DNA from: Thermoplasmata archaeon
GTDB lineage: Archaea; Thermoplasmatota; Thermoplasmata; Thermoplasmatales; Thermoplasmataceae
NCBI GenBank assembly: GCA_021846395.1
Contig: JAJZXB010000005.1
Span: 62,001 to 126,000, forward strand
Reading direction: 5' to 3'
DNA length: 64,000 nucleotides
Part shown: positions 1-14,860 of the stretch, piece after piece
Position numbering within the stretch: position 1 is the stretch's first letter
How the letters are laid out: every line of letters starts with the position of its first letter
Position numbers and translations under genes: made by a program
The notes under the pieces: generated by a model
Told to the model about the DNA's origin: nothing
What the model saw: the letters and a program-made list of their open reading frames with translations, nothing else
Database searches by the model: none

Positions 1-806
1 TTTTTATAATCATCTTTGGATTCATTTGGCAATAAGGGAACCTTGCCGAATGGCCTGTCTGATAGCCTCATTGTATCACTTGAAGAGCCTATTGCCCTTA
101 TTTTAACGGGGTTTTTGCACAGGCTTTTTGCCCTCTCTTCCGATGCAAGGATAACACAGGCAGCACCATCTGACATCAAGCTTATATCCAGCATTGTCAG
201 TGGAGTTGCAACCATCGGTGATTTTAAAACATCATCAACTGTAATTTTCATAGGACTCTGTGCAAATGGGTTGTGCATTGCATTTCCATGATTTTTTACG
301 GAAACCATGGCCATCTGCTCGGGGGTTGTGCCAAACTCATGCATGTGTCTTGTTGCCATCAAGGCATAATATGCGGTATAAAATCCACCAAGTGGATAAT
401 CAAAGTTTGAGTCGCTTCCTAAGGCGATAACATCATTGCCCTTCCATGTGTTTAAATGAGACATGCTTTCGAAGCCATAAACGGCACAAGTTTCCATATT
501 TCCAGATGCTATTTCCTCATAGCCGGCCTGAAATGCCAGCCCTCCTGTGGCACCTCCACCTTCTATTCTTTTAGATGGCTTTGTTGCCAGCCCTATATAA
601 TCATTTGTCATTGCACCTGCTATTAGCTGTCCCTGTATATGGTCAGAAAAATATGCTGATACAGAACCGTCCATATCCTTATGTGTAATATCTGCATCAT
701 TCAGGGCATAATCAAAAGCCCTTTTTACCATCAGGCGAAAATCCTCATCATAGTTGTGTTTTCTGAATTTCGTCATGCCAGCTGAAACAATATAAACATC
801 ATTCAA
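1..806 (-). CDS. Thiolase-like protein (SCP-x/Ltp type), 3' end cut by window
   Basis: Reading from 806 towards 1 gives an open frame beginning LNDVYIVSAGMTKFRK, the usual N-terminus of archaeal thiolase-domain proteins. That match favours the TTG at 806, which overlaps the stop of the acyl-CoA dehydrogenase gene upstream, over the ATG at 776. The family condenses or cleaves acyl-CoAs and often works with a DUF35 partner. Oddly, where thiolases carry the nucleophilic cysteine (CASGG) this protein reads EGGGATGGLAF, with glycine in the cysteine position by eye. It may therefore be an Ltp-like aldolase or thiolase relative rather than a classical thiolase. About 268 codons are visible and the C-terminal His/Cys region lies outside the window. 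Confidence 0.85.
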   Translation of the reverse strand, partial: MNDVYIVSAGMTKFRKHNYDEDFRLMVKRAFDYALNDADITHKDMDGSVSAYFSDHIQGQLIAGAMTNDYIGLATKPSKRIEGGGATGGLAFQAGYEEIASGNMETCAVYGFESMSHLNTWKGNDVIALGSDSNFDYPLGGFYTAYYALMATRHMHEFGTTPEQMAMVSVKNHGNAMHNPFAQSPMKITVDDVLKSPMVATPLTMLDISLMSDGAACVILASEERAKSLCKNPVKIRAIGSSSDTMRLSDRPFGKVPLLPNESKDDYK

Positions 807-1942
807 AGTTTACCACCATTTTCCCTGTATTTCCTTATCAACGCCTCAGAAATAATTTTTTTCCTTATTTCATTTGTTCCTGCCCCTATGGTTAAAAGTA
901 GGGAATCCCTGAATAACCTTTCTATTTCAAAGTCCTTTATATAGCTATAGCCACCAAATATCTGCATTGCCTCTCTTGCTATATATTCACATGATTCGGA
1001 TGCATACAAAATTGATGAGGCAGCATCTAGTGAATTCATTTTATTGCTATTCACACGATTGAGGGCTTCATAGGCAAAAACCCTTGAAGATTCAAATTTT
1101 GTATACATATATGCAAGTTTTTCCTGTATGAGTTCAAATTCATGTATGGGCCTGTTGAACTGCTTTCTTTCGATGGAGTAATTTACTGCAAGGTCAAGCG
1201 CCCTTCTTGCAATGCCTATTGAATTGAATGACAGTATTGACCTTTCCATATTTAAACCTGAAAACATTACATTTTTTCCATTGTTAAGTGAGCCCACAAT
1301 GCGACTCTCATCCAGTGGGATATTATTGAAATATATTTCCCCAGTTGGAGATCCCCTCATGCCAAATTTATCAAATTCAGGGCCTCTGGAAAAGCCATCA
1401 TCGGATGATAAAACCACAAAGGGTGTTATATCCTTTCCAGTTCTGGCATAAACAAGAAATATATCTGCATAAGGTGCATTCGTTATGAATGTTTTGCTGC
1501 CATTTAATATGCATTTATTGCCTGTAAATTCAGCATGGGTTTTCATTGACAGTGCATCACTTCCAGATGAGGGCTCTGTCATTCCCAGTGACCCTATGCT
1601 TTTTCCATTGGCCAGAGAGGCAACATAATTTTCCCTTATAAATTCGGATCCATTTCTATAGAGGTTGTCGAGGCATAGATTGCTGTGGGCACCATAGGAT
1701 AATCCCATAGATCCGGATGCATAGCTGATTTCCTCTTCTATTATTGCCTGTGATACATAATCTGATCCTGATCCCCCATATTCCACGGGAATGGTAACGC
1801 CAAGATACCCAAGAGATCCCATTTTTCTGAATAAATCCACTGGAAAATAATTTTCATAATCAATTTTTTTCGCCAGTGGAGAAATCTCTTTTTCCGAAAA
1901 CTGCCTGGCACTTTCCCTTAAAATATCATATTCATCATTCAA
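803..1942 (-). CDS. Acyl-CoA dehydrogenase
   Basis: A 379-residue flavoprotein of the usual acyl-CoA dehydrogenase length. It should oxidise acyl-CoA to 2-enoyl-CoA with FAD and pass electrons to an ETF. The N-terminal helical domain, the middle beta domain (GSLGMTEPSSGSDA near residue 120; FITNAPYADIF) and the C-terminal helical domain (YSIERKQFNRPIHEF; QIFGGYSYIKDFEIERLFRD) are all present. The IGAGTNEIRK motif near the C-terminus contacts FAD. The stop overlaps the TTG start of the thiolase-like gene, so the two are probably translated together. They may serve fatty-acid or branched acyl-CoA breakdown; the substrate cannot be read from the sequence. Confidence 0.93.
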   Translation of the reverse strand: MNDEYDILRESARQFSEKEISPLAKKIDYENYFPVDLFRKMGSLGYLGVTIPVEYGGSGSDYVSQAIIEEEISYASGSMGLSYGAHSNLCLDNLYRNGSEFIRENYVASLANGKSIGSLGMTEPSSGSDALSMKTHAEFTGNKCILNGSKTFITNAPYADIFLVYARTGKDITPFVVLSSDDGFSRGPEFDKFGMRGSPTGEIYFNNIPLDESRIVGSLNNGKNVMFSGLNMERSILSFNSIGIARRALDLAVNYSIERKQFNRPIHEFELIQEKLAYMYTKFESSRVFAYEALNRVNSNKMNSLDAASSILYASESCEYIAREAMQIFGGYSYIKDFEIERLFRDSLLLTIGAGTNEIRKKIISEALIRKYRENGGKL

Positions 1943-2043
1943 ATTATCACTCTTTATAATTCAGGTGGAATATTTAAATTCTTATAATGAGAAATAATAT
2001 TGCCATTAAAAGAATATTTATTCATGATAGCAATGATATCCTT

Positions 2044-3249
2044 ATGTTGTCATTTGACGATGTACTTGAAGCTGAGAATATTATAAGGGACAAACTGCAT
2101 AGAACACCAATATTTCATTCGGAAACATTCAGTGATATGTTCAATGCAGATGTGTATTTTAAAATGGAAACATTCCAGAAAACAGGTTCCTTTAAAACAA
2201 GAGGTGCCCTTGTTAAATTTGCATCCCTTACCCATGAGGAAAAAAAGAATGGGGTAATAACAGCCAGTGCAGGGAATCATGCACAGGGTGTTGCCTATGC
2301 AGGCCATTATTACAATGTTGATGCCAAAATTGTGATGCCTGAAGCTACAACTCCAGCAAAAATAAACGCTGTTGAGTATTATGGTGGGCATGCCATTCTT
2401 CATGGAAAAAGCTACGATGAGGCACATGATTATGCAGTAAAGCTTGGGAAAAAGGAGAAAAGGACATTCATAGAAGCATATAATGATGAAAGGGTCATTG
2501 CAGGGCAATCAACAATAGGAAAGGAGATAATGGATGACCTGAATCCGGATATTATCGTTGTTCCAATTGGAGGTGGTGGCTTAATATCTGGAGTGGCATT
2601 TGCTGCAAAAAATATGGATAATAATGTAAAAATAATTGGAGTTGAATCTGAAAAGGCAAATTCAATGGATTTATCTATAAGGGAAAACAGGATAGTTCCA
2701 TACACAAGCAATGATACAATAGCAGATGGAATGGCAGTAAAATATCCTGGAGATATAACATTCAGTTATGTGAAAAAATATGTTGACAATATCGTTACAG
2801 TTTCAGATGAAAACATTGCATATGCATTATTCAAAATTCTGGAAAGGGAAAAGGTCCTGGTTGAGCCATCGGGTGCAACTGGACTGGCAGCATTGATGGA
2901 AAATAAGATAGATGTTAAAAATAAAAAGGTTGTAATTGTATTGTCCGGTGGCAATATCAACTTTTTATTGCTTTCAAATATTATATACAAATCCCTTGAG
3001 CGGGAGGATAAATTGATACGAATACAGTTTAAATTGCCGGACCATCCAGGCATAATGGTAAAAATTGTGAATGCCATATCGAGTGTTGGAGCAAACATTT
3101 ACCATGCTGAGGTTGACAACCTTAAGAAGGATACAGAAATTGGATATCAGAATTTATTATTTACAATAAATATCGTTGATAAAGAAAGAATAAACGACCT
3201 GCTAAACTCCATAAACAAGCTTGGCTACAAATACAGCATTATAGATTGA
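2044..3249 (+). CDS. ilvA: Threonine ammonia-lyase (threonine dehydratase) with ACT domain
   Basis: PLP enzyme converting threonine to 2-oxobutanoate and ammonia, the entry to isoleucine synthesis or threonine catabolism. The PLP lysine lies in TGSFKTRGA (residue 51 from this start), the phosphate loop is VPIGGGGLISG, and a C-terminal ACT domain follows (IQFKLPDHPGIMVKIVN onwards). An in-frame ATG also exists at 1987. I prefer 2044 because a TATA-like stretch at 2013-2020 lies about 26 bases upstream, which fits a leaderless transcript, and because the family fold begins near SFDDVLEAENII. It is divergent from the acyl-CoA dehydrogenase gene. Serine dehydratase activity is possible. Confidence 0.9.
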   Translation: MLSFDDVLEAENIIRDKLHRTPIFHSETFSDMFNADVYFKMETFQKTGSFKTRGALVKFASLTHEEKKNGVITASAGNHAQGVAYAGHYYNVDAKIVMPEATTPAKINAVEYYGGHAILHGKSYDEAHDYAVKLGKKEKRTFIEAYNDERVIAGQSTIGKEIMDDLNPDIIVVPIGGGGLISGVAFAAKNMDNNVKIIGVESEKANSMDLSIRENRIVPYTSNDTIADGMAVKYPGDITFSYVKKYVDNIVTVSDENIAYALFKILEREKVLVEPSGATGLAALMENKIDVKNKKVVIVLSGGNINFLLLSNIIYKSLEREDKLIRIQFKLPDHPGIMVKIVNAISSVGANIYHAEVDNLKKDTEIGYQNLLFTINIVDKERINDLLNSINKLGYKYSIID

Positions 3250-3252
3250 TGC

Positions 3253-3582
3253 CTATAATGCGAGGTACCATGGAGTTACTGAATTTGCCTGAATATACAG
3301 GCCATCCACATACTTTCCATGAACAAGAACGTGAGTCCCCACAGCGGGTGTGCTTCCATTATAGGCAACGGCAACGTTTGAACCGCTATCATTCACGCTT
3401 ATCAATGATTTTCCATTAAATGATATTATTCCAATAATATTCCCATAAATATAATATGTTTTTCCGGAATGCATATTTGCTGGTGCAGTATTAACAACCG
3501 GAGGAATCAAGCTGTAAATTAGCAGGGAAGCTATTATGACGATAACCACCGATGCAATAATCTTCTTTCTTCCGCTTTTCAT
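3253..3582 (-). CDS. Membrane-anchored OB-fold protein, CcmE-like, lacking the haem-binding tail
   Basis: A 109-residue protein with one N-terminal membrane segment (about residues 8-27) and a small beta-rich outside domain. The stretch VAVAYNGSTPAVGTHVLVHG followed by YVDGLYIQANSV resembles the core of cytochrome c maturation protein CcmE. CcmE normally continues into a haem-binding H/C-x-x-x-Y motif, but here the protein stops at TPWYLAL with no histidine or cysteine there. It could be a CcmE relative that does not carry haem, or simply an OB-fold surface protein. No other cytochrome c maturation gene lies nearby. It converges on the threonine ammonia-lyase gene with a gap of 3 bases. Confidence 0.55.
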   Translation of the reverse strand: MKSGRKKIIASVVIVIIASLLIYSLIPPVVNTAPANMHSGKTYYIYGNIIGIISFNGKSLISVNDSGSNVAVAYNGSTPAVGTHVLVHGKYVDGLYIQANSVTPWYLAL

Positions 3583-3612
3583 GGAACTAAATATACATTT
3601 GCCTATTTAAAA

Positions 3613-3906
3613 CTATCTTATGACAAAATCATAAAAATCACACTCGGCTATTGCCTTTTTCTCATATCTTTCTATCCTTGAACCGGGAATTCTCAGGGAA
3701 TAATTGATAACGATGCCAATGCTCCTTTCATCCCCGCAGAAAATGGCCTCCACAGAGCCATCAGGCAGATTTTTCACCCATCCAGTCAGGGAATAATCCA
3801 TTGCTTTTCTTTTTATATGTGCCCTGAATCCTATGCCCTGGACAATGCCATAATATTTTATATTTACACAGTACATAACTTTCTTTCCTTCATTCAATTG
3901 GGCCAT
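3613..3906 (-). CDS. acyP: Acylphosphatase
   Basis: A 97-residue protein with both acylphosphatase signatures: YGIVQGIGFRAHIKRKA, whose arginine binds phosphate, and GWVKNLPDGSVEAIF, whose asparagine positions the attacking water. It hydrolyses carboxyl-phosphate bonds in the cytoplasm. The family is usually about 90 residues, so the ten residues before MYCVNIKYYG may be extra and an internal ATG at 3876 is an alternative start. The next minus-strand gene begins 30 bases downstream, so both may be cotranscribed. Confidence 0.92.
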   Translation of the reverse strand: MAQLNEGKKVMYCVNIKYYGIVQGIGFRAHIKRKAMDYSLTGWVKNLPDGSVEAIFCGDERSIGIVINYSLRIPGSRIERYEKKAIAECDFYDFVIR

Positions 3907-4214
3907 AATATTTCTATTATAGATTCCATTATTTAGGTTAATATAATAATTTCATATATAAAAATATATTTTAAAAATTTACCGGATATATTGGTAGATG
4001 ATAGGTTGTCTCAATTTTGTCACGTGAAGGATATATTGTATTCTGTGATAAAACCATTTCAGCCTATTTCTTGAATTCCGATTTCAAAAATTTTTCCGCA
4101 ATACTATTGTTAAAATTTCAATTATTTATCCATATGATATCAAATTTGGTTAAACTTTTATCGATCCCGCTCATGCCATCAGTTAGTCTTCTTAGGCTTC
4201 CTCCTTGAAAATGG
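3907..4214. other. Gene-free stretch, about 300 bases
   Basis: Very AT-rich DNA between the acylphosphatase promoter and the end of the exported-protein gene. The part nearest 3907 would hold the acyP promoter (TATA-like tctataatag on the minus strand). I see no convincing gene, RNA or repeat in the rest. Confidence 0.4.
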
Positions 4215-4778
4215 TTATTGGTTGATAAGTATAGGATATGCATATACAATCATAACACCCGACGGCAATTCATACTGAAGGTAAATTTTTCCCGTTTCTT
4301 TTGAAAGAGCGGTTACCGAGAAACCAAGGTACATGTCCGGTGATCCCGGTTTGAGACTTATCCTGTTACCAAGGGTATATGCACTCAAAAGGATCGACGA
4401 AGTTCCATTACATAGAGTAACTCCAGATGGAAGAGTTCCATTTATCCATAGATATACAGTATTGGTAGAAGTGTCATTTATTTCCAGAACTGCTCCTGAA
4501 GAGGTGGTTGTATTAACATAGACCGGTGTGCCGTTCACCACATTAAGAGGGTGTCCCGCTACTTCAACATAAAAATTTCCTAATAACTGCTCATTAGCAT
4601 AGGATGGACCTAAACCGAGATAAACGGACGGTGCAGTGGGATGTGTAGCCATTGGATACTCATAGACAACGGCGACAGAAGATGCAGGGGAAAGAAAGAG
4701 AGAGAAAATAAATAAAAATACAACCACAACTGCCATACCACGTCGGAGAAATATGGTATTGGATTTCCGGTCAATCAT
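4215..4778 (-). CDS. Exported or membrane-anchored surface protein, paralogue of the next gene upstream
   Basis: A 187-residue protein with a basic N-terminus and a hydrophobic segment (about residues 14-36) acting as signal or anchor. A beta-rich, threonine/serine/asparagine-rich domain follows, with no cysteine pairs and no catalytic motif. The phrase TNTVYLWINGTLPSGVTL closely matches VYVYINGTLPTNITI in the neighbouring protein encoded at 4789-5372, and both share a similar order of segments, so they arose by duplication. The family is unknown to me. Size, signal and composition suggest a cell-surface subunit; Thermoplasmatales lack a rigid wall and display such proteins on the membrane. 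The upstream paralogue's stop lies 10 bases before this gene, so they are probably one operon. Confidence 0.7.
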   Translation of the reverse strand: MIDRKSNTIFLRRGMAVVVVFLFIFSLFLSPASSVAVVYEYPMATHPTAPSVYLGLGPSYANEQLLGNFYVEVAGHPLNVVNGTPVYVNTTTSSGAVLEINDTSTNTVYLWINGTLPSGVTLCNGTSSILLSAYTLGNRISLKPGSPDMYLGFSVTALSKETGKIYLQYELPSGVMIVYAYPILINQ

Positions 4779-4788
4779 TACATACCAC

Positions 4789-5372
4789 TTATCCTGATAC
4801 TTGGATGTCTAATTTTCCATTACCGGATACATTCCCCTTTATCCAAAATGATATGTAAGCTGTATGGTTGGAAGTTAGGGGAATTTTCATGCTGAACCCT
4901 GAACCACTTGCAGAAGTATTTCCTGCTCCACTTCCCTGTACCACAGAGTATGTTCCAATTGAGTTCCCACTGAATGTCATTTCCGTTGTGTTGTCTACGT
5001 ATATAGTAATATTTGTGGGTAGAGTACCGTTAATGTAAACATACACTGGACCCGTTACTCCAGTTGACGTGTTAGCTATCTTAAAAACATTCAGTAGATA
5101 CGTGGAACCGGCACCGCTCACTCCATTTACGCTTAATGATGTTCCATTAGTGATTTCAGTGTTACCCCCCCCCCTCCTGAAACCAATCCAAACGCCTTGG
5201 CCTGTAAATAACCAGGTCCTTCTTGCAATGAGATGGTAGCTGTTGCCGGAGTGGAAGAAGTAGGATACACAAAAACAATGAAAACGCTTGCACTTACGAC
5301 CATTGCAACAACAATAATTGCCATCACTGGTATACCGAAAATCTTTTTTTGGAAAATATCGGGAAGTTTCAT
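4789..5372 (-). CDS. Surface protein interrupted by a C10 homopolymer (possible phase-variable gene, currently out of frame)
   Basis: The start MKLPDIFQKKIFGIPVMAII at 5372 gives an anchor segment and the beginning of the outer domain, then runs into ten C bases at 5165-5174 (G10 in the coding sense). As read, the frame ends soon after at about 5133 (VTLKSLMEHH). The other frame after the tract continues with NTEITNGTSLSVNGVSG to a stop at 4789 and matches the downstream paralogue. Eleven or eight Gs would join the parts into one protein of about 194 residues, close to the 187 of its neighbour. Either this is a contingency gene switched off in this sequence, or the tract length was misread. 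Confidence 0.65.
5165..5174. repeat. Homopolymer of ten C
   Basis: An unbroken run of ten C inside the coding region of the 5372-4789 surface-protein gene. Such a run is very improbable by chance in DNA this AT-rich. Slippage by one base would toggle the reading frame. Confidence 0.95.
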
Positions 5373-5579
5373 TAATATCGATAATTATATTTGGAGAAAG
5401 TATAAAAAAGTTTCTATTTTGTTGAATATTTTCTCCATCTTTATATAATAACAATTAGAGGTTGTAATTCAAATATTTATACAATTTGCTTAAAAAACTA
5501 TTTTTTGTTTATACATTTGTTCAATACAGCAGTAGTTCTACCTTTTAGAAAGTTTTACAATTAATTACGTTGTTAATTT

Positions 5580-6662
5580 TTAATATTTGCTTATGAGTGT
5601 TATAACATCCTCATCATTTACAGCATAATCCAGGCCAACACGCAATTCAATTTTCCTGCTTGGCCCTATTATGATTGCATACCTGAATGATGGTATCATT
5701 TCCCTGCTTATTTTCCTGCAAACATCACGCACGGTTGAGCCGAGGCTCAGAATCAAAGGGCGTTCATAATCCACATCGCCCGCCTTATTTTTCATGTAAA
5801 TCCTCACAAGATCCAGAGACCTATATATCATTGCCTTCATATTTTCAATGTTGTGGCCAGTTGTTGCAGATACTTCCATGTAATTGTCAAATTTCGATAA
5901 TTTCTCCTTTAATTTCTTTTCATCGTGCGGCATATCAATTTTGTTGACGACCAAAAATGATTTAATATATACTATATTTCCCTTAAAAAAATCAATTAAA
6001 TCATCCATATCCACTTTTTCCCTTATGTATATATCACCATTTACAACCCTGAATTCCTTCGCTATATCCCTGATATCCCCTTCATTTATATTGACCTTTC
6101 TGGGCTTGTGTATTTTTAATCCACCGTAATTTGTTTTTTTGAATGAAATATCCTTTCTTTTTTTATTTAAAACAATTCCGGATTTGTAAAGCTCAGAAAT
6201 TATTCGATCAAGACCCTTTGCATCGACATCGGTAACCATAACAATGAGCTCAACATTCCTGATTGTGCTAATTATCTCCCTGCCCCTTCCTGCACCTATG
6301 GCAGCATTGTCAATAATTCCGGGAAGATCAAGTATCTGAATCTGTGCCCCATTGTAATTGAGAGTACCCGGTATGACGGTGAGGGTTGTAAATGCAAAAT
6401 TGCCAACAATGCTTTTTTTGTTTGTGAGTGAGTTTAAAAGTGAGCTTTTTCCAACATTGGGATAACCCACAAGAGCTATGGTGGCATCCCCACTCTTTGA
6501 AACTGAAAAACCATAACCAGATGATTTCTTATGGGATTCCTCTTCAATCTCCAGCTTTGACATTCTGGCTTTTAAGATGCCAATATGCTTCTCCGTTGCC
6601 TTATTTTTCTGTGTTTTCTTTATTTCGTCCTCAATTTCCTTGATCTTCTCTTCTATAGTCAT
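5580..6662 (-). CDS. Drg/Rbg family GTPase with TGS domain
   Basis: A 360-residue OBG-class GTPase with an N-terminal basic helix-turn-helix region (residues 1-55). The GTPase domain has G1 GYPNVGKSSLLN, a switch region with TTLTVIPG, G3 DLPG and G4 NKID. A C-terminal TGS domain begins near residue 290 (RPLILSLGSTVRDVCRKI). Archaeal and eukaryotic Drg proteins bind translating ribosomes and are thought to help stalled elongation. The ATG overlaps the TGA of the upstream methyltransferase gene (ATGA), and the gene closes the long nurA-to-drg operon. Confidence 0.93.
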   Translation of the reverse strand: MTIEEKIKEIEDEIKKTQKNKATEKHIGILKARMSKLEIEEESHKKSSGYGFSVSKSGDATIALVGYPNVGKSSLLNSLTNKKSIVGNFAFTTLTVIPGTLNYNGAQIQILDLPGIIDNAAIGAGRGREIISTIRNVELIVMVTDVDAKGLDRIISELYKSGIVLNKKRKDISFKKTNYGGLKIHKPRKVNINEGDIRDIAKEFRVVNGDIYIREKVDMDDLIDFFKGNIVYIKSFLVVNKIDMPHDEKKLKEKLSKFDNYMEVSATTGHNIENMKAMIYRSLDLVRIYMKNKAGDVDYERPLILSLGSTVRDVCRKISREMIPSFRYAIIIGPSRKIELRVGLDYAVNDEDVITLISKY

Positions 6663-7201
6663 GTTCTCACTTTAAGCCTGTATAAAATAATTGATTCAAA
6701 ATCAAAATGTTCACATTTAACCCTTTCAAATGTGTATATCCTGTATTTTTCAATGAACTTTTCTACATTGGTTAAATCGGATAATATTATGTATATATTT
6801 CCATTTTTATTCAGATATTTATAAGCACTGTCAAGAAATTTTCCGGTAGTCCCAAAACCATCCTTTCCACCTGACCACTGAAGGCTTTCATTTTCAACCG
6901 GCAGATATGGGGGGTTGAAAATTATTGTATCATATATGCCATGAATATTTTCAAATAGGTTTGATTTAATTATATCCAAATTGGCGTGATTTTTTTTCGC
7001 ATTTTTCCCAATCAGGTCTATTGAATGCTCAGATATATCGGATGATGTTACATCGTATCCCTTTAACGCAAAAAAAATTGATATTATGCCGGTTCCAGCA
7101 CCTATTTCTAGGATCTTTCCTTCCGGTATAACATTATCGATAATTAAATATGTATCCTCCGCAGGTTTATAGACATTATCTGAATAATCTATATCCATCA
7201 T
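6659..7201 (-). CDS. HemK/Mtq2-like class I methyltransferase (probable release factor glutamine methyltransferase)
   Basis: A 180-residue SAM-dependent methyltransferase. The SAM loop is ILEIGAGTGIISIFFA and the catalytic motif is FNPPYLP, the NPPY signature of N5-glutamine methyltransferases. The opening VYKPAEDTYLIIDNV is typical of the archaeal/eukaryotic Mtq2 type, which methylates the GGQ glutamine of release factor aRF1 with help from Trm112. No Trm112 gene is in this window. The neighbouring translational GTPase supports a translation-related role. An ATG-ATG pair at 7201 leaves the start uncertain by one codon. Confidence 0.85.
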   Translation of the reverse strand: MMDIDYSDNVYKPAEDTYLIIDNVIPEGKILEIGAGTGIISIFFALKGYDVTSSDISEHSIDLIGKNAKKNHANLDIIKSNLFENIHGIYDTIIFNPPYLPVENESLQWSGGKDGFGTTGKFLDSAYKYLNKNGNIYIILSDLTNVEKFIEKYRIYTFERVKCEHFDFESIILYRLKVRT

Positions 7202-7245
7202 TCTGATAATAATGTTACATCCATATTTTATGTTTATGACTGCAG

Positions 7246-9918
7246 TTATATTGAAATAACCCTTGAACTTCCATCCGTTTTAATAACTTCATATGAAATG
7301 TCCGCAACTGAAGTCAGCTCACTATGATGCGTTATCATTATCATCTGTGGTATTATATTTTCACCCTTTAGGGAATACTGAATTATGTCCTTTAAATTAT
7401 TTCTTCTATCCTCATCAAGGAAATTTGTTGGCTCATCCATTATTATTGCGCTTATTCTGTCAAGGACATAATTTGCAACGGACAGCCTCAAAGCTATTGC
7501 CAGGGCAGTTTTTTCACCTCCACTGAGGGATTCTATAAACTGTTCCATGGAATTTTGCGTGACCTTAATATCAAAATTTTCATCAATGGATATATCATCA
7601 AAATCAAGATTGAATGATGTTAAGTATTTTCTTGCCATATTTGTTATTGACACCGAAGCATCCTTTCTGATCATTGACTGTATGCCATTAACATCATATG
7701 ATTCCCTTATCTTGTCCAGCTTCCTTATTGCATCGGCAATTTTATTGTAGTTCTCAACATCGTTATTCAGGTTTTTTATTTTTTTATCGTGTTCATTTAT
7801 TGTTTCATTATTCTGGTTTATTGTGACTTCCTTTCTGATCCTTTCTTGACGCTTCTGATCCATCTCCTCCTTCAATTTTTCATATTCCTGTTCCATGCCG
7901 TCAAACTCCGAAAGCCGGGTTTTATAAGATTCTATTTCATTTCCCAGAGCCTCGATGCTTTTATTTAAATTATTTATCTGTTCGTCAATATTTGCCAGTT
8001 TTTCCCTTAAACCTATGGCTATTTCCTGCCCCTTTTTCAGCTCATTGATTCTCTCTGATATTTTATAAACGTTATTGAATTTTGATTCCTCTGGAATTAT
8101 TCCTGTGGACTTCTCAATATTGCCCAGCTTTGCATTGTTATTTTTAATTTCATTATCAAGGTCCGCCTGCTTTTTTTCCAGCCCATCGATATCTATTTCC
8201 GAAACTATATGTGAATATTTTGTATATTTTAATTCGTATGGCTCAATTTCCCTTAGAATTTTTTCCATTTTCTCATTTTCATCGCTCAGGGCAAGATATC
8301 TGTCATGGTCATTTTTGATAAGGTTTAGCCTTTCACTGATTTCATTTTTTTCCGATTCAAGTGATTTGCTTTCCCTTAAATCCGCAATATACTGTTCAAT
8401 GGCATCTGAGTTCAACAGAGCGTATTCCTCACCGTATTTTTTTATATTATCATCATTCTCTGCTTTTTTCACTTTCAATTTCTCTATCTGGCCTATTATT
8501 TCCTTTATGTTATTACTGTATTCACCCTCAATTTTTTTTAAATGCTCTGGGCTGAGTGTTTCTCCACACAGGGGGCATTGGCTTTTCCCATTCAGCGTTT
8601 CCATGTTTAAACGGTATTCATTCATTTTTGAATTGAGCTGTGCAACCTGGGATTTTATGAACGCATTTCCGGAATTAGATTCCTGTATATGTGTCTGTAT
8701 GTTTTCTTTCTGTTCTCTTAAATTATTTATATCTGGGAACTGACCTTTGTATTTTTTAATGTTTTCTGATTTTTTCACCAGAATTTCATTGATTGCTTTT
8801 AGCCTCATATCTTTCTGGTTATATTCATTGTAGGCACTGTTGTATTTTTTAATTTCCATGGAATTGCTGTCATATAACTTTTTGGCACTGTGGTATTTTT
8901 CATGATATTCCGTGAGATTATTTTTGTTGTTTAAATTTGATTTATAGTTTGATATATTTTTATTCAGCTCATCAAGACTTTTTTCAAGAGTTCCGTTTTC
9001 TCTCTTAATGCTGAAATATTCATTTATTATGTCCCTGTTTGTATAATATATATTTGACTCCAGTTCATCAAGTATTTTTTTATTGGCTGAATATGATATT
9101 AAGTCTTTCTCTATTGTTTCTCTGTTTTTTTCAAGGGATTTAATATTGCCTTCATTTCTTTGCATCTCATCCTGCCGTGCTTTCATGGTATTTTCATACT
9201 GTATCTTGGTTTTTATATTTTTGTCAAGACCCATTAACCTTTGCTGGTATTCACTTTCCATTTCTTCAAGAAGTTTTTTTTCCTCAGACAGTTCTTCATT
9301 TTTGCCCTTAAGTTTTTCTGTATCTTCTTTGAGTTCATCCATCTTTTCCTTTGAATTCTGCAGTAGCAGGGATTCTGCCTTCAATCTATTTATTATTTCC
9401 CTGAGTTTATCGGCATTTTTTGAAAGTGATGTCAAGCCTATTATATCACTGAAGATCTGCTTCCTTTCCTTTGGAGTTCCAGAGATCAATGAATCCATCT
9501 GGCCCTGCTCTACAAATACTGAATTTTTAAAGATTTCCCTTGAAACACCCAGAATTTTTGATATTTCCTGTGTTATTCCCTCATATGTTTCAGCTATTAT
9601 TACAGAATTCTTTTTGATATACGCCAGCCTTTCAGCATTTTTTGCAGATTTTATACCAAAATGCCGGTATACCTCATATTCATCACCATTGACATTGAAC
9701 CTTAAATATATGTCAAAGAAATGTTTGCCTTTTTTAATAAGCTCATTGTTTTTTTCGGAATTCCTTGATTCTGCAAATAATGCAAATTTTATTGCGTCCA
9801 GTATGCTTGTTTTACCTGCCCCATTTTTGCCCGTGATGATGTTAATCCCATTTTCAAAAACGATATTTGTTTTCTCATGCGAGAGGAAATTTGTCATTTC
9901 AAGAGATTCTATAATCAT
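7246..9918 (-). CDS. rad50: DNA double-strand break repair ATPase Rad50
   Basis: An 890-residue SMC-like ATPase. The N-terminal head has Walker A (GKNGAGKTSILDAIKFAL) and a Q-loop region (VFVEQGQMDSLI). A long, lysine/glutamate/asparagine-rich coiled coil is broken in the middle by the zinc hook CPLCGE, through which two Rad50 molecules join. The C-terminal head has the ABC signature ESLSGGEKTALAIAL and Walker B IIMDEPTNFLDE. With Mre11 it binds and opens broken DNA ends. Its ATG overlaps the last codon and stop of mre11 by 4 bases. Confidence 0.97.
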   Translation of the reverse strand: MIIESLEMTNFLSHEKTNIVFENGINIITGKNGAGKTSILDAIKFALFAESRNSEKNNELIKKGKHFFDIYLRFNVNGDEYEVYRHFGIKSAKNAERLAYIKKNSVIIAETYEGITQEISKILGVSREIFKNSVFVEQGQMDSLISGTPKERKQIFSDIIGLTSLSKNADKLREIINRLKAESLLLQNSKEKMDELKEDTEKLKGKNEELSEEKKLLEEMESEYQQRLMGLDKNIKTKIQYENTMKARQDEMQRNEGNIKSLEKNRETIEKDLISYSANKKILDELESNIYYTNRDIINEYFSIKRENGTLEKSLDELNKNISNYKSNLNNKNNLTEYHEKYHSAKKLYDSNSMEIKKYNSAYNEYNQKDMRLKAINEILVKKSENIKKYKGQFPDINNLREQKENIQTHIQESNSGNAFIKSQVAQLNSKMNEYRLNMETLNGKSQCPLCGETLSPEHLKKIEGEYSNNIKEIIGQIEKLKVKKAENDDNIKKYGEEYALLNSDAIEQYIADLRESKSLESEKNEISERLNLIKNDHDRYLALSDENEKMEKILREIEPYELKYTKYSHIVSEIDIDGLEKKQADLDNEIKNNNAKLGNIEKSTGIIPEESKFNNVYKISERINELKKGQEIAIGLREKLANIDEQINNLNKSIEALGNEIESYKTRLSEFDGMEQEYEKLKEEMDQKRQERIRKEVTINQNNETINEHDKKIKNLNNDVENYNKIADAIRKLDKIRESYDVNGIQSMIRKDASVSITNMARKYLTSFNLDFDDISIDENFDIKVTQNSMEQFIESLSGGEKTALAIALRLSVANYVLDRISAIIMDEPTNFLDEDRRNNLKDIIQYSLKGENIIPQMIMITHHSELTSVADISYEVIKTDGSSRVISI

Positions 9919-11042
9919 TTTTCCACCATGCCAAACAGATTTTTTATAAGGTTGTATGATGTATTCACATCCTCATTTTTAATTGTTTCATAAATGTTAC
10001 TGGCCAGCGCTGAAAGATCGCTATCGTTGAAATATGCCTGAAAATAGTCAATGAGTTTGGAGAGATTTGGTTTCTCTGATATTCTTTTTATTTCATTTTC
10101 AAATACAGGGCCCTTAATCAAAACATTCTGTATTTCCCTTATTTTTTTTCTTATTTCATCCCTGTCAACATCACCGTGTATTGTTATCAACAGCAATGGA
10201 TCCTTTTCATTGTCCATCCTCCGACCAACTATTTCATCTATATCCTTCATATAATTTCTGTAATCAGATTTTATCTCGGCCTGGTATCTTGTTGTCTTCA
10301 GCTTAATTTGCTGGGCATTGACAGTGCCATTTTCAATATCCACAAGGTTAACCGATTTTTTATTTTTTGCAAAGTGTTTCAGCTCGTTGGAACTGTTTAT
10401 ATCAGTTGATCCAGCATAGGAAAAAACGGGATATCTGTCATCTATGAGATGCGAATCATGAACATGGCCAAATGCTAAATATTTATAATTCAATGGCAAA
10501 TCCTTTGAATCGACCTCACATGCCTCTTTTATTAAATATGGATATACACCCTGGTGCGACATTAAAATTGAATTTTTATATTCCTTTGCTGCAATATCAC
10601 CCTTTCGGTATTCTTCGGTGATATTATCCTTTCTCAAGCCCTTCATATTGGATAATCCAGAAATCAATAAATCCTCATTATTGTAATTAAGAACAATATT
10701 TTCAATGTTGTTCACACCAAGTAACTTTACGCCAAGAAAGTCGAAGATCCTTGATGCAATTTCATCGGTTCTTTTTGGCCTGTCATGATCTCCCATTATC
10801 AGATACATTGTTTTATTTTTGCTGTACAATTTCAATGCGGCCTTTTTGAATTCATTCAAGGCTCTATTTGATGGAGACCATGTATCAAACAGGTCTCCTG
10901 TATGAACAAAAAAATCCACATTTTCTTCAAGCCCTATGTCGATAGCCTCATTGAATGATTCGTAAAAATCATTTTCCCTCAAATCCATCATGTATTCCTT
11001 ATAACCAAGATGGGTATCTGACAGGTGCAGGAATCTTGCCAT
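9915..11042 (-). CDS. mre11: DNA double-strand break repair nuclease Mre11
   Basis: A 375-residue metallophosphoesterase nuclease. Metal ligands are visible in order: HLSDTHLG at the N-terminus, HTGDLFD, MGDHDRP, MSHQGVYPY and FGHVHDSHLI. The capping domain and a C-terminal Rad50-binding segment follow. It resects DNA ends together with Rad50, HerA and NurA, all encoded in the same operon. The start shares one base with the herA stop (TAATG), which sets the ATG at 11042. Confidence 0.97.
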   Translation of the reverse strand: MARFLHLSDTHLGYKEYMMDLRENDFYESFNEAIDIGLEENVDFFVHTGDLFDTWSPSNRALNEFKKAALKLYSKNKTMYLIMGDHDRPKRTDEIASRIFDFLGVKLLGVNNIENIVLNYNNEDLLISGLSNMKGLRKDNITEEYRKGDIAAKEYKNSILMSHQGVYPYLIKEACEVDSKDLPLNYKYLAFGHVHDSHLIDDRYPVFSYAGSTDINSSNELKHFAKNKKSVNLVDIENGTVNAQQIKLKTTRYQAEIKSDYRNYMKDIDEIVGRRMDNEKDPLLLITIHGDVDRDEIRKKIREIQNVLIKGPVFENEIKRISEKPNLSKLIDYFQAYFNDSDLSALASNIYETIKNEDVNTSYNLIKNLFGMVEK

Positions 11043-12595
11043 TATAAATCACCAAGAAGGCTCCTGTTCTTTTTCTTGATCTCATCTGGATCGTTCATTT
11101 TTCTCAGTTCTTCTCGTGCCTCACTCAGTAATCCTATGAGATCTATATCTGAACCTCCTGCCATTGTTTCCCTATCCCTTATTTTAATTATAACTGGCAT
11201 TTTGACAATTTCGCCGACAATTATTGCCTCACCGATATCCAGAGACGGAAGGTCTTCCATGAGGTACTGGGTGATATTTTCACTGCTTTCAAGGATAGCG
11301 TTCTGGTCAGATGGGTTGGTTACCCTTAAAATGATCTGTGAATTGCACTGGCTCAAAACATCTGAGTCTATTTTTCCTGGCCTCTGTGTAATCACAACAA
11401 GGAATATGCCAAATTTTCTTCCCTCGCCAGCTATTTTCTTTATCATTCCAGCTATTCCTGAATTTCTCCTTGGAGGCACAAAGTTATGCGCTTCCTCCAC
11501 AAAAACAAATACTGGGTACCTGAATTCCATTGAAAGCTTTGAATCATAAATTTCACTCAGAACCCTGAATGAAAAGTAATTTGCCAGAAACTGGTCCATT
11601 CCGGATAAATCCATTACTGACATTTTTCCAGGTGATAGATAGTCCTTTATTCCAGTGCTGTAATCCTCAAAAATACTCTTTATTTTATTCAAAAATGTTA
11701 GCCTTCCCTTTATTTTTTTATAATCTTCTACAGGTAGTTTTTCAGCGGTTTCAAGAAAGTCTGCCAGATCTTTTTTGCCCTTCATTTTCTTGTAGATATC
11801 ATCAACAATGGAGTTTAAATTTGTATAATTTTCCCTTATATCCATTATGCCCTTTATATCATCAGAACTCAGATCCTGAAATCTTATAGTGAAATTATTT
11901 ATAATTCCTATATCATCCTTTGTGTATCTTCCCGTGCTCAATGGTGTTCTGAATACGCCAACATTATTGGAATATATTTTGCCATCAGTTTTCTTTTTCA
12001 TGAAAACATAATCTGCATGTGGATCCAGAACTATAATTGAAGCCCCTTTTTTCAGAAGCTCTTCCATAATAACAGATGCTGTATGACTTTTTCCCGCTCC
12101 AGTCTGTGCAAGAATTGCAAGATGCCTTCGCAGGCCATTTATATTTACTGACACCCTGACATTATTATCGGGCAAATAGCCTATATTCAGTGATTCTTCC
12201 TCATTATACGAAAATATTTTATTCAATAATTCCTCGTCTGCCTTAAACACTGAAATTCCTGGCTTTATTATTTCCCTTGACTGGATCAAATTGTTTCCAT
12301 CAAATTTTCCCAGCACTGTTGATAAGCATATATTAACAAAATCATTTATATTGTTGTCTGTGTATTTTTTTATGCTTTCATAATCCATATTGTTGTTCAG
12401 CAAATCACTTTTTGATACTATCTCCTCAATTCTTCCGACTATTGTTTCACCGTTTATCTTTAAATAAACATATTCCCATTTCCTTATGCCCATATTGTCG
12501 GATATTACAAATTGAAACTTATTCGATGAGTTCTCTCCACTCGTATATCCTATTTCATACCCTGATTCTAACACGTCTTTCACCCCTTGTTTCAT
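11042..12595 (-). CDS. herA: DNA end-resection helicase/translocase HerA
   Basis: A 517-residue hexameric FtsK/HerA-type ATPase. An N-terminal HAS-barrel (roughly residues 10-110) precedes the motor domain with Walker A LAQTGAGKSHTASVI and Walker B VFVFVEEAHNFVPP. The arginine-finger region follows (GEGRKFGIFLVVITQRPGKI). It drives DNA into NurA for 5' strand resection. The start lies 41 bases inside the end of nurA in another frame, implying coupled translation. The first ATG is chosen because little sequence precedes the HAS-barrel. Confidence 0.96.
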   Translation of the reverse strand: MKQGVKDVLESGYEIGYTSGENSSNKFQFVISDNMGIRKWEYVYLKINGETIVGRIEEIVSKSDLLNNNMDYESIKKYTDNNINDFVNICLSTVLGKFDGNNLIQSREIIKPGISVFKADEELLNKIFSYNEEESLNIGYLPDNNVRVSVNINGLRRHLAILAQTGAGKSHTASVIMEELLKKGASIIVLDPHADYVFMKKKTDGKIYSNNVGVFRTPLSTGRYTKDDIGIINNFTIRFQDLSSDDIKGIMDIRENYTNLNSIVDDIYKKMKGKKDLADFLETAEKLPVEDYKKIKGRLTFLNKIKSIFEDYSTGIKDYLSPGKMSVMDLSGMDQFLANYFSFRVLSEIYDSKLSMEFRYPVFVFVEEAHNFVPPRRNSGIAGMIKKIAGEGRKFGIFLVVITQRPGKIDSDVLSQCNSQIILRVTNPSDQNAILESSENITQYLMEDLPSLDIGEAIIVGEIVKMPVIIKIRDRETMAGGSDIDLIGLLSEAREELRKMNDPDEIKKKNRSLLGDL

Positions 12596-13598
12596 AGAAT
12601 GTTATTCCTGTTGCCTTTTCGAAGGCTTTCATATAAACATTTTCCATTTCCTTTGACCTGAGCTTTACCTTTTTGTCAACATCCACAAGCCAGAGATTAT
12701 AAACCCGATAACTTGTATATCCATAGAATATCAAATTTATTATGCCCTCGTCAATGTTATATGGTGACTTGTTAGATGTCTCCTTCTGGAAATCCCTGTC
12801 AAGAATGTGTACCATCATTGGCAAATCCTCAACTTTCGGCAAAACATCAAATGATACGTAATTAACATCAAAACCCTCCAGTGTTTTTTTATACATAACT
12901 GGTGTTGTATATCCTTTTGAATGTGCCATGGATTTTATGATTGCATGATCATTTGGATATATTTTAATTTCCTTTTTTACTGATTCTGAGTTTAAATACT
13001 CTGGCCTGATTGAATTCAGCAAATAGTCTTTGAATTTATCAGAAAAACTGCTTTTTGCAATGAATATAAGCCTGATATTTTTATCGAATGCTTTTTTAAT
13101 CATTTCCCTTAAGGTTCTGAAATATTCTCCCATGAATGCCTGGTAATTATCTATTTTAAGGGTCTCGGTACTGTGTGAAAGTCTCCCCTCCAGAGAGCCA
13201 TCAACGAAGATATATTCTGGACTGTGTTTATCAAGAAGGTTTATTATTGATCTGTGCTCTGAGTATTCCATCAAGAGGATTGTGAATTTCATAAGTTCCT
13301 CAGGATTCACTGCAACCATATCAGTTTTAAAATGAGAGAATGTTTCATTTTTATATACGGTATATGCCCTGACAATTACAATATTTTTCCCAATATAAAG
13401 CATTCTTACAAATTCTGAGCTGTCCGTTGAGGCCACATCTATTCTTCCAGGGTCATGTGGGTTAAATTCATGAAAATTTCGATTGAATGCATCTTTAAGC
13501 AGCAGGTATATATCTGATTTTTCATCCATCTTCATTGATTTTCTTATCATTTCACGATTTTTATTCAGATAATCCATAAAATCCGAGAACGTATCCAT
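12555..13598 (-). CDS. nurA: 5'-3' nuclease NurA
   Basis: An RNase H-like nuclease of 347 residues from the ATG at 13598 (MDTFSDFMDYLNKNRE). The frame stays open upstream to 13706, but that part is a hydrophobic, low-complexity translation of promoter-like DNA, so the shorter start is preferred. The NurA metal-binding start motif is visible as IFVDGSLEGRL, and the late motif is in YNLWLVDVDKKVK. NurA acts with HerA, whose gene overlaps its 3' end. This gene heads the operon nurA-herA-mre11-rad50. Confidence 0.92.
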   Translation of the reverse strand: MDTFSDFMDYLNKNREMIRKSMKMDEKSDIYLLLKDAFNRNFHEFNPHDPGRIDVASTDSSEFVRMLYIGKNIVIVRAYTVYKNETFSHFKTDMVAVNPEELMKFTILLMEYSEHRSIINLLDKHSPEYIFVDGSLEGRLSHSTETLKIDNYQAFMGEYFRTLREMIKKAFDKNIRLIFIAKSSFSDKFKDYLLNSIRPEYLNSESVKKEIKIYPNDHAIIKSMAHSKGYTTPVMYKKTLEGFDVNYVSFDVLPKVEDLPMMVHILDRDFQKETSNKSPYNIDEGIINLIFYGYTSYRVYNLWLVDVDKKVKLRSKEMENVYMKAFEKATGITFYETRGERRVRIRV

Positions 13599-13768
13599 TT
13601 TTAAAGATAATATGGATTTAAAAATAAATCTTTCTATGAGAATTAATAATAAACAAAATACGGTATATAAATCAAAAAGATTTAAAAACAGTAATATATT
13701 ATACATCTATTAAATTTGGTAAAGATATATTGTCCCATATAGCTATGAGGTGTATATTTTAATGCATT

Positions 13769-14860
13769 ATGGTGTTAATGATGTTCCCAACAGTTAAGGT
13801 CGAGAATGAAAACCTGAATAACGTTGTAGATACGGTAAAACAACATTTAAACTATTATGAAGTAAATGTAAATCCAATGAGCATAAAATTTCTTTTTTTC
13901 GATAGTGACAATCCAAATATTGATGAAAATTTTGATGAAATAAGAAAAATACTGGTACCTGAAGGCTACATACCATTTTTATTTAGGGATGGAGAGCATT
14001 ATATTGAAGTATCAATAAGGCCTGATGAAAATTACAGGACAAATAAGGTAAACTTTGTAATGCTCATCCTGACAGTAATATCAACAATTTATGTTGGCTC
14101 AATATACGCAAGTAGTTTTGTAACACCAGGGCCCTATTCCGAAATGTACAAATTATTGTATGGATTTGTATTTTTTTCATTGCCGCTGATGGTTATTCTG
14201 GGAGTTCACGAAACAGCCCATTACATTGTTGCAAAAAAATACCATGTGAATGCTTCACTGCCCTTCTTCATACCTTTTCCGTATATGATAGGAACTTTTG
14301 GTGCATTTGTTTCCCTGAGAGATCCAATACCAAATAGAAAGGTAATGGCAGAAATAGGGGCAGCTGGGCCAATAGCAGGATTTGTGGTGGCAATACCCTT
14401 GTTATTTTTAGCACAGTACTTCGAGACAATATTCCAACCTGTTGGAACATACATCCCATTTGAGCTGAATTACCCAATTATATACACACTGTTCGGTATT
14501 ATTGAACCCACAAGAGTGCCAATTTTTCCAATGGTTTTTGCCGTCTGGGTTGGCATGTTTGCAACAGCAATGAACCTGATACCTTCAGGACAGCTTGATG
14601 GTGGACATATAGCCAGAGGCATTCTGGGGAAAAATGCATATATTTTAAGCTATGCATTTTTGGGATTTTTATTTTATTTAACAATTAGATATAACTATTT
14701 GGGCTGGCTATTCCTCGGTTTATTTGTGATGTTCATGGGACTTGTGCATCCACCTGCCTTAAATGATTATGAAAAAATAAAAACTAGGGACATTTTAATA
14801 GGTATATTTGCTTTAATAATGTTTGTACTAACATTCGCACCATTGCCCATAAAACCATAA
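13769..14860 (+). CDS. Site-2-protease-like intramembrane metalloprotease (M50 family)
   Basis: A 363-residue multi-spanning membrane protease. Zinc ligands are visible as VHETAHYIVAKK (HExxH) and, farther on, NLIPSGQLDGGHI (the LDG motif). An N-terminal soluble domain of about 95 residues comes before the first membrane segment, and roughly seven hydrophobic segments follow. Proteases of this type cut membrane-bound regulators or signal peptides within the membrane; the substrate is unknown. Several ATGs lie close together (13769, 13778, 13781), so the exact start is uncertain by a few codons. It is divergent from the nurA operon across about 170 bases. Confidence 0.92.
   Translation: MVLMMFPTVKVENENLNNVVDTVKQHLNYYEVNVNPMSIKFLFFDSDNPNIDENFDEIRKILVPEGYIPFLFRDGEHYIEVSIRPDENYRTNKVNFVMLILTVISTIYVGSIYASSFVTPGPYSEMYKLLYGFVFFSLPLMVILGVHETAHYIVAKKYHVNASLPFFIPFPYMIGTFGAFVSLRDPIPNRKVMAEIGAAGPIAGFVVAIPLLFLAQYFETIFQPVGTYIPFELNYPIIYTLFGIIEPTRVPIFPMVFAVWVGMFATAMNLIPSGQLDGGHIARGILGKNAYILSYAFLGFLFYLTIRYNYLGWLFLGLFVMFMGLVHPPALNDYEKIKTRDILIGIFALIMFVLTFAPLPIKP

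Follow-up and report, generated by a model that had tools for sequence, protein, structure and literature searches.

Does a run of ten identical bases switch a surface-protein gene on and off in an archaeon? Phase variation by slippage is textbook knowledge for host-associated bacteria, in which it is usually attributed to immune pressure. In the window (the whole 64,000-nucleotide stretch of DNA that was analysed), which belongs to the genome of an Acidiplasma species, a C10 homopolymer at positions 5165-5174 of the forward strand lies within a surface-protein gene on the reverse strand, as the first-pass annotation had claimed. The features of the locus are the following.

5373 to 5579, reverse strand: AT-rich upstream region (20% GC) with TATA-like sequences, the presumed promoter
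4789 to 5372, reverse strand: complete surface-protein gene, 193 or 194 amino acids with a tract of 8 or 11, respectively
5133 to 5372, reverse strand: start-frame open reading frame of 79 amino acids, the putative OFF product, with a hydrophobic N-terminal anchor, about 40 predicted extracellular residues, an out-of-frame tail and a stop
5165 to 5174, reverse strand: proposed slippage tract, a G10 homopolymer (C10 on the forward strand), codons 66-69 of the surface gene
4789 to 5163, reverse strand: second-frame remainder of the surface gene, 124 codons plus TAA, encoding the conserved beta-sandwich domain
4215 to 4778, reverse strand: intact tandem paralogue of 187 amino acids, beginning 10 nt past the stop of the tract gene

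The coding strand across the tract reads TCA GGA G10 T AAC ACT, and GGA-G(n)-T-AAC is in frame at n = 8, which gives 193 amino acids, or at n = 11, which gives 194; the earlier statement that a tract of either length would join the two frames is thus arithmetically correct. Two of its measurements needed revision, as the start frame had been said to stop about 15 bases past the tract and the continuing frame to run for 115 codons; the end of the stop codon is in fact some 30 bases beyond the tract, and the continuing frame comprises 124 codons (5163 to 4792) followed by TAA at 4789-4791. Both sides of the tract are otherwise intact, with a hydrophobic N-terminus on one side and 124 stop-free codons matching intact orthologues on the other, and the gene carries no further disabling change beside the frameshift at the tract. 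Since no damage is seen in the rest of the gene, which still matches intact orthologues, the frame break is either very recent or reversible.

Pattern searches of the 1.66-Mb genome counted 13 G/C runs with a length of exactly 7; lengths of 8 and 9 do not occur, and the tract at 5165-5174, with 10, is the only G/C run of at least 8. In the window, the next longest are G6 and C5. Because extrapolation from the decay of run-length counts gives about 0.2-0.3 expected G/C runs of at least 10 in the genome, the length of the tract taken alone is only mildly unusual and represents weak evidence. GGG accounts for 13% of the glycine codons, and the tract is the sole glycine stretch with repeated GGG.

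We consider it probable, if by no means firmly so, that the G10 tract is a slipped-strand contingency switch. During replication, the tract would gain or lose G units and thereby move the surface gene between an OFF and an ON state. At n = 9, 10, 12 and so on, the gene would be OFF and yield a membrane-anchored stub of 79 residues or a similar truncated product, and at n = 8 or 11 it would be ON and yield the surface protein of 193 or 194 residues, with its N-terminal anchor and beta-sandwich. The sequenced length of 10 would thus represent the OFF state, and the paralogue 10 nt downstream may either remain expressed or suffer polar effects. What the sequences show directly is the tract, the two frames, the intact remainder of the gene, its family, the lack of further frame breaks nearby and the similar tracts of relatives; slippage, its reversibility, and expression and surface exposure of the focal protein are what we infer from them.

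The tract gene is the first in a tandem two-gene unit, in which both products are predicted to be membrane-anchored beta-sandwich proteins, and the paralogue is probably cotranscribed with it. A TATA-like sequence (e.g., TTTTTTATA) was found about 37 nt upstream of the ATG of the surface gene. A sigma-70-type promoter scan returned background and a terminator scan near background, these models not being applicable to archaea. The first-pass annotation had the continuing frame match the intact downstream paralogue; the paralogue is indeed an intact relative (28% identity to the tract gene), but the direct match is weak (E 0.06-0.17), and it is one orthologue in the relative G020 that both genes match (1.9e-14 for the tract gene and 9.7e-19 for the paralogue). 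Intact orthologues of the surface gene were found in 14 of 60 relatives (29-41% identity; best E 1.7e-12), each being one open reading frame with an N-terminal hydrophobic segment. None of these 14 remote orthologues has a long G tract at the corresponding site, and no close orthologue for comparison was found in the genus. No copy of the surface gene was found in two genomes of that genus, and a scan of genome contigs with the domain found no relative.

The surface pair sits between genes encoding an OBG-type GTPase and an acylphosphatase, and the GTPase is 92% identical to that of the sister MAG. At the same site, the sister species carries two cytochrome-bd-like genes (window 3907-5579 versus 3424-6230 of L082), a label given from sequence appearance rather than from a family search, and homologs of these genes occupy the site in Ferroplasma relatives. 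As both the sister and Ferroplasma carry other genes here, the surface pair is a lineage-specific insertion or replacement; judged by the genomes compared, the GTPase-acylphosphatase interval is a variable site. A virus or plasmid origin of the surface genes was also considered and was rejected after zero matches among phage or plasmid records.

No family name could be given to the surface protein, as there was no NCBIfam match and no Pfam match above the cut-off; the sole Pfam match, to PA-IIL lectin, was sub-threshold. The modelled fold is an Ig/jelly-roll-like beta-sandwich. The glycine run aligns to a variable loop in the orthologues and lies between two strands in the read-through model, and with the run in a loop, four or five glycines should both be tolerated. 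A Foldseek search against the PDB gave zero matches at E <= 0.001. A second structural alignment retrieved generic beta-sandwiches, with 7UEG, the Pyrobaculum bundling pilus subunit AbpA, ranking first for the paralogue only (Z 8.5, rmsd 3.1, 115 aligned). Because 7UEG ranked merely 17 for the focal protein (Z 6.6), a pilin role for the modelled surface proteins is a lead only, and a sequence-profile search against solved structures found no pilin chain. The AbpA and TasA-like donor-strand pilins and the Sulfolobus thread (7PNB) have in common with the focal protein an N-terminal hydrophobic segment followed by a beta-sandwich; they differ from it in the lack of a sequence match, and any donor strand in the focal protein would be hypothetical.

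Comparable tracts were found among relatives by a search for G9 across 121 genomes, after which the sites were retrieved and read. In one taxonomic family of relatives (f5), a group of secreted proteins with TSP3-type repeats has a tract of G5-G11 directly after the signal-peptide core, in 12 copies from 8 genomes.

f5 loci: L132, L147, L133, L134, L135, L136, L138, L148, L141, L150, L155 and L160

Of the 12 copies, two are in frame (n = 8 and n = 11; offset 0). The other ten are not, seven having an offset of 1 and three an offset of 2; they include a truncated remnant in G055 (G9) and a copy in G111 that is cut by the contig end. Within the taxonomic family of the focal genome, G008 has a G9 at a signal-peptide end that is also out of frame (L168, G008:C35), the start frame ending after 32 amino acids and the alternative frame comprising 467 codons. 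The focal tract, unlike those of f5 at the signal-peptide end, lies one third into its gene, a point against slippage switching here.

Another arrangement was found upstream of genes. The seven G/C tracts of at least 9 in genus g3 all directly follow a TATA-like box and stand about 9-15 nt upstream of the start codon of a secreted-protein gene, often with TCACG a few bases 5' of the box.

Promoter-spacer tracts, G or C, 8-12 in length: L042, L043, L044, L045, L109, L110 and L111 in g3; also L038, L124 and L021

Among homologous promoters, the tract is C6 in one, interrupted in another, C9 in a third and C10 in two more, while further paralogous promoters range from G8 to G12. That either G or C can occupy the same promoter position speaks for selection on the tract as such. 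In G004, paralogous g3-family promoters (L221, L222) have an interrupted C tract and C6, as if tracts had been gained and lost. Across the taxonomic family, TTTAT-N(1-6)-G8 is confined to genera g3 and g13 and one GC-rich genome, in which a reversed control pattern is equally frequent; the promoter mode is therefore not general.

A census compared 45 tracts with 302 short-run controls from the same loci. The promoter-type secreted class comprised 9/45 tracts and 10/302 controls (Fisher P 1.6e-4) and the frame-break secreted class 4/45 and 6/302 (P 0.03), P values that ignore shared ancestry; many of the 45 tracts had neither context. Poly-G at contig starts in L019 (G116:C38:1-) and L031 (G098:C27:1-20), most likely sequencing artefacts, was left out.

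The first-pass proposal of a phase-variable surface gene therefore stands in part. The anatomy of the gene fits it, as do independent cases in the same order, with tract lengths differing between species and copies both in and out of frame, and the promoter-spacer tracts of relatives; the 14 remote orthologues without the tract represent half of what the annotation had named as speaking against it, namely orthologues with neither homopolymer nor switching. A single tract would be no proof by itself, but with comparable tracts in secreted-protein genes of relatives, slipped-strand phase variation is the best explanation for the focal tract. A broader reading, to which we give slightly better than even chances, is that phase variation of secreted or surface proteins by selected slippage is lineage-wide in Thermoplasmata and operates in two modes, through reading frame and through TATA-to-start spacing; tracts in open reading frames would typically lie at the signal-peptide end, and the Acidiplasma gene would be a mid-gene case. 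NucS was absent from the focal genome and most relatives. Two adjacent MutS_V-type open reading frames of about 500 amino acids were observed in the focal genome (L223, L224; G000:C21:87040-89012). The absence of NucS together with MutS-like open reading frames of only about 500 amino acids would suit poor correction of slippage, which is only suggestive.

The same frame break could have arisen if the tract slipped once and left a young pseudogene in which switching is not selected. This would agree with the tract missing from the orthologues and with the failure of the genus to keep the gene at this site, where the sister species has cytochrome-bd-like genes; however, a surface gene with no other disabling change and the recurrence of comparable tracts with on and off copies among relatives make such a one-off event unlikely. 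Somewhat less likely again is that the true tract is 8 or 11 in an intact gene and that the count of ten reflects an error of assembly or sequencing. Indel errors are likeliest at long G/C runs, and in G098 and G116 artefact-like poly-G is present where contigs end, but comparison of the focal and sister genomes over 11 orthologues and 3,918 codons (window 3-14857) revealed no second frame break, despite 27 A/T runs of at least 7 in the same 14.9 kb. This argues against an assembly generally prone to homopolymer errors, the A/T runs being a partial control only, as G/C runs are fewer and harder and leave room for a G-specific error.

A further alternative is programmed recoding, in which the G run would slip in translation or transcription, so that the out-of-frame gene yields a full-length protein. 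Homopolymers can slip in transcription or translation, and most f5 copies are out of frame, even those with tracts of 5-6, where DNA slippage should be slow. A programmed signal would, however, hold one offset, whereas f5 offsets vary (0, 1 and 2), and the orthologues of the focal gene, being in a single frame, need no recoding; recoding thus appears very improbable as an explanation of the focal tract, for which slipped-strand switching is preferred.

The nearest known parallels are the poly-G/C contingency genes of Campylobacter, Helicobacter and Neisseria, which share with the focal gene a long G/C tract inside a surface-protein open reading frame, frames that join at every third length and a gene that is otherwise intact. 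The focal case differs in its archaeal host, in having only one such tract in the genome and in a tract-length change that is proposed rather than observed. The locus works like a contingency locus, membership in this class being unproven because the tract is absent from orthologues and, with one genome per species, length variation was not observed. The promoter tracts, a likeness that concerns the g3 relatives and not the focal gene, resemble bacterial phase variation by homopolymers in the -35/-10 spacer in that the tracts occupy the spacer within promoters of surface genes; in g3, by contrast, this spacer runs from the archaeal TATA box to the start codon of what would be leaderless-type promoters.

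In a 2025 review (PMC11868660), archaea are mentioned only as a place for phase-variation work to turn to next, and a tract survey of 18 archaeal genomes mainly covered poly-A/T (PMC2831843). For Thermoplasmata, the open literature searched yielded no report of phase variation through poly-G/C tracts, subscription papers being mostly outside this search. The mechanism is established in bacteria, and the tracts of the focal gene and of relatives suggest that archaea use it as well. The promoter-spacer version would serve as a natural experiment on how the distance from TATA box to start codon matters in archaeal promoters. If surface switching does occur in these free-living, acid-loving archaea, viruses or neighbours would be the suggested source of the pressure.
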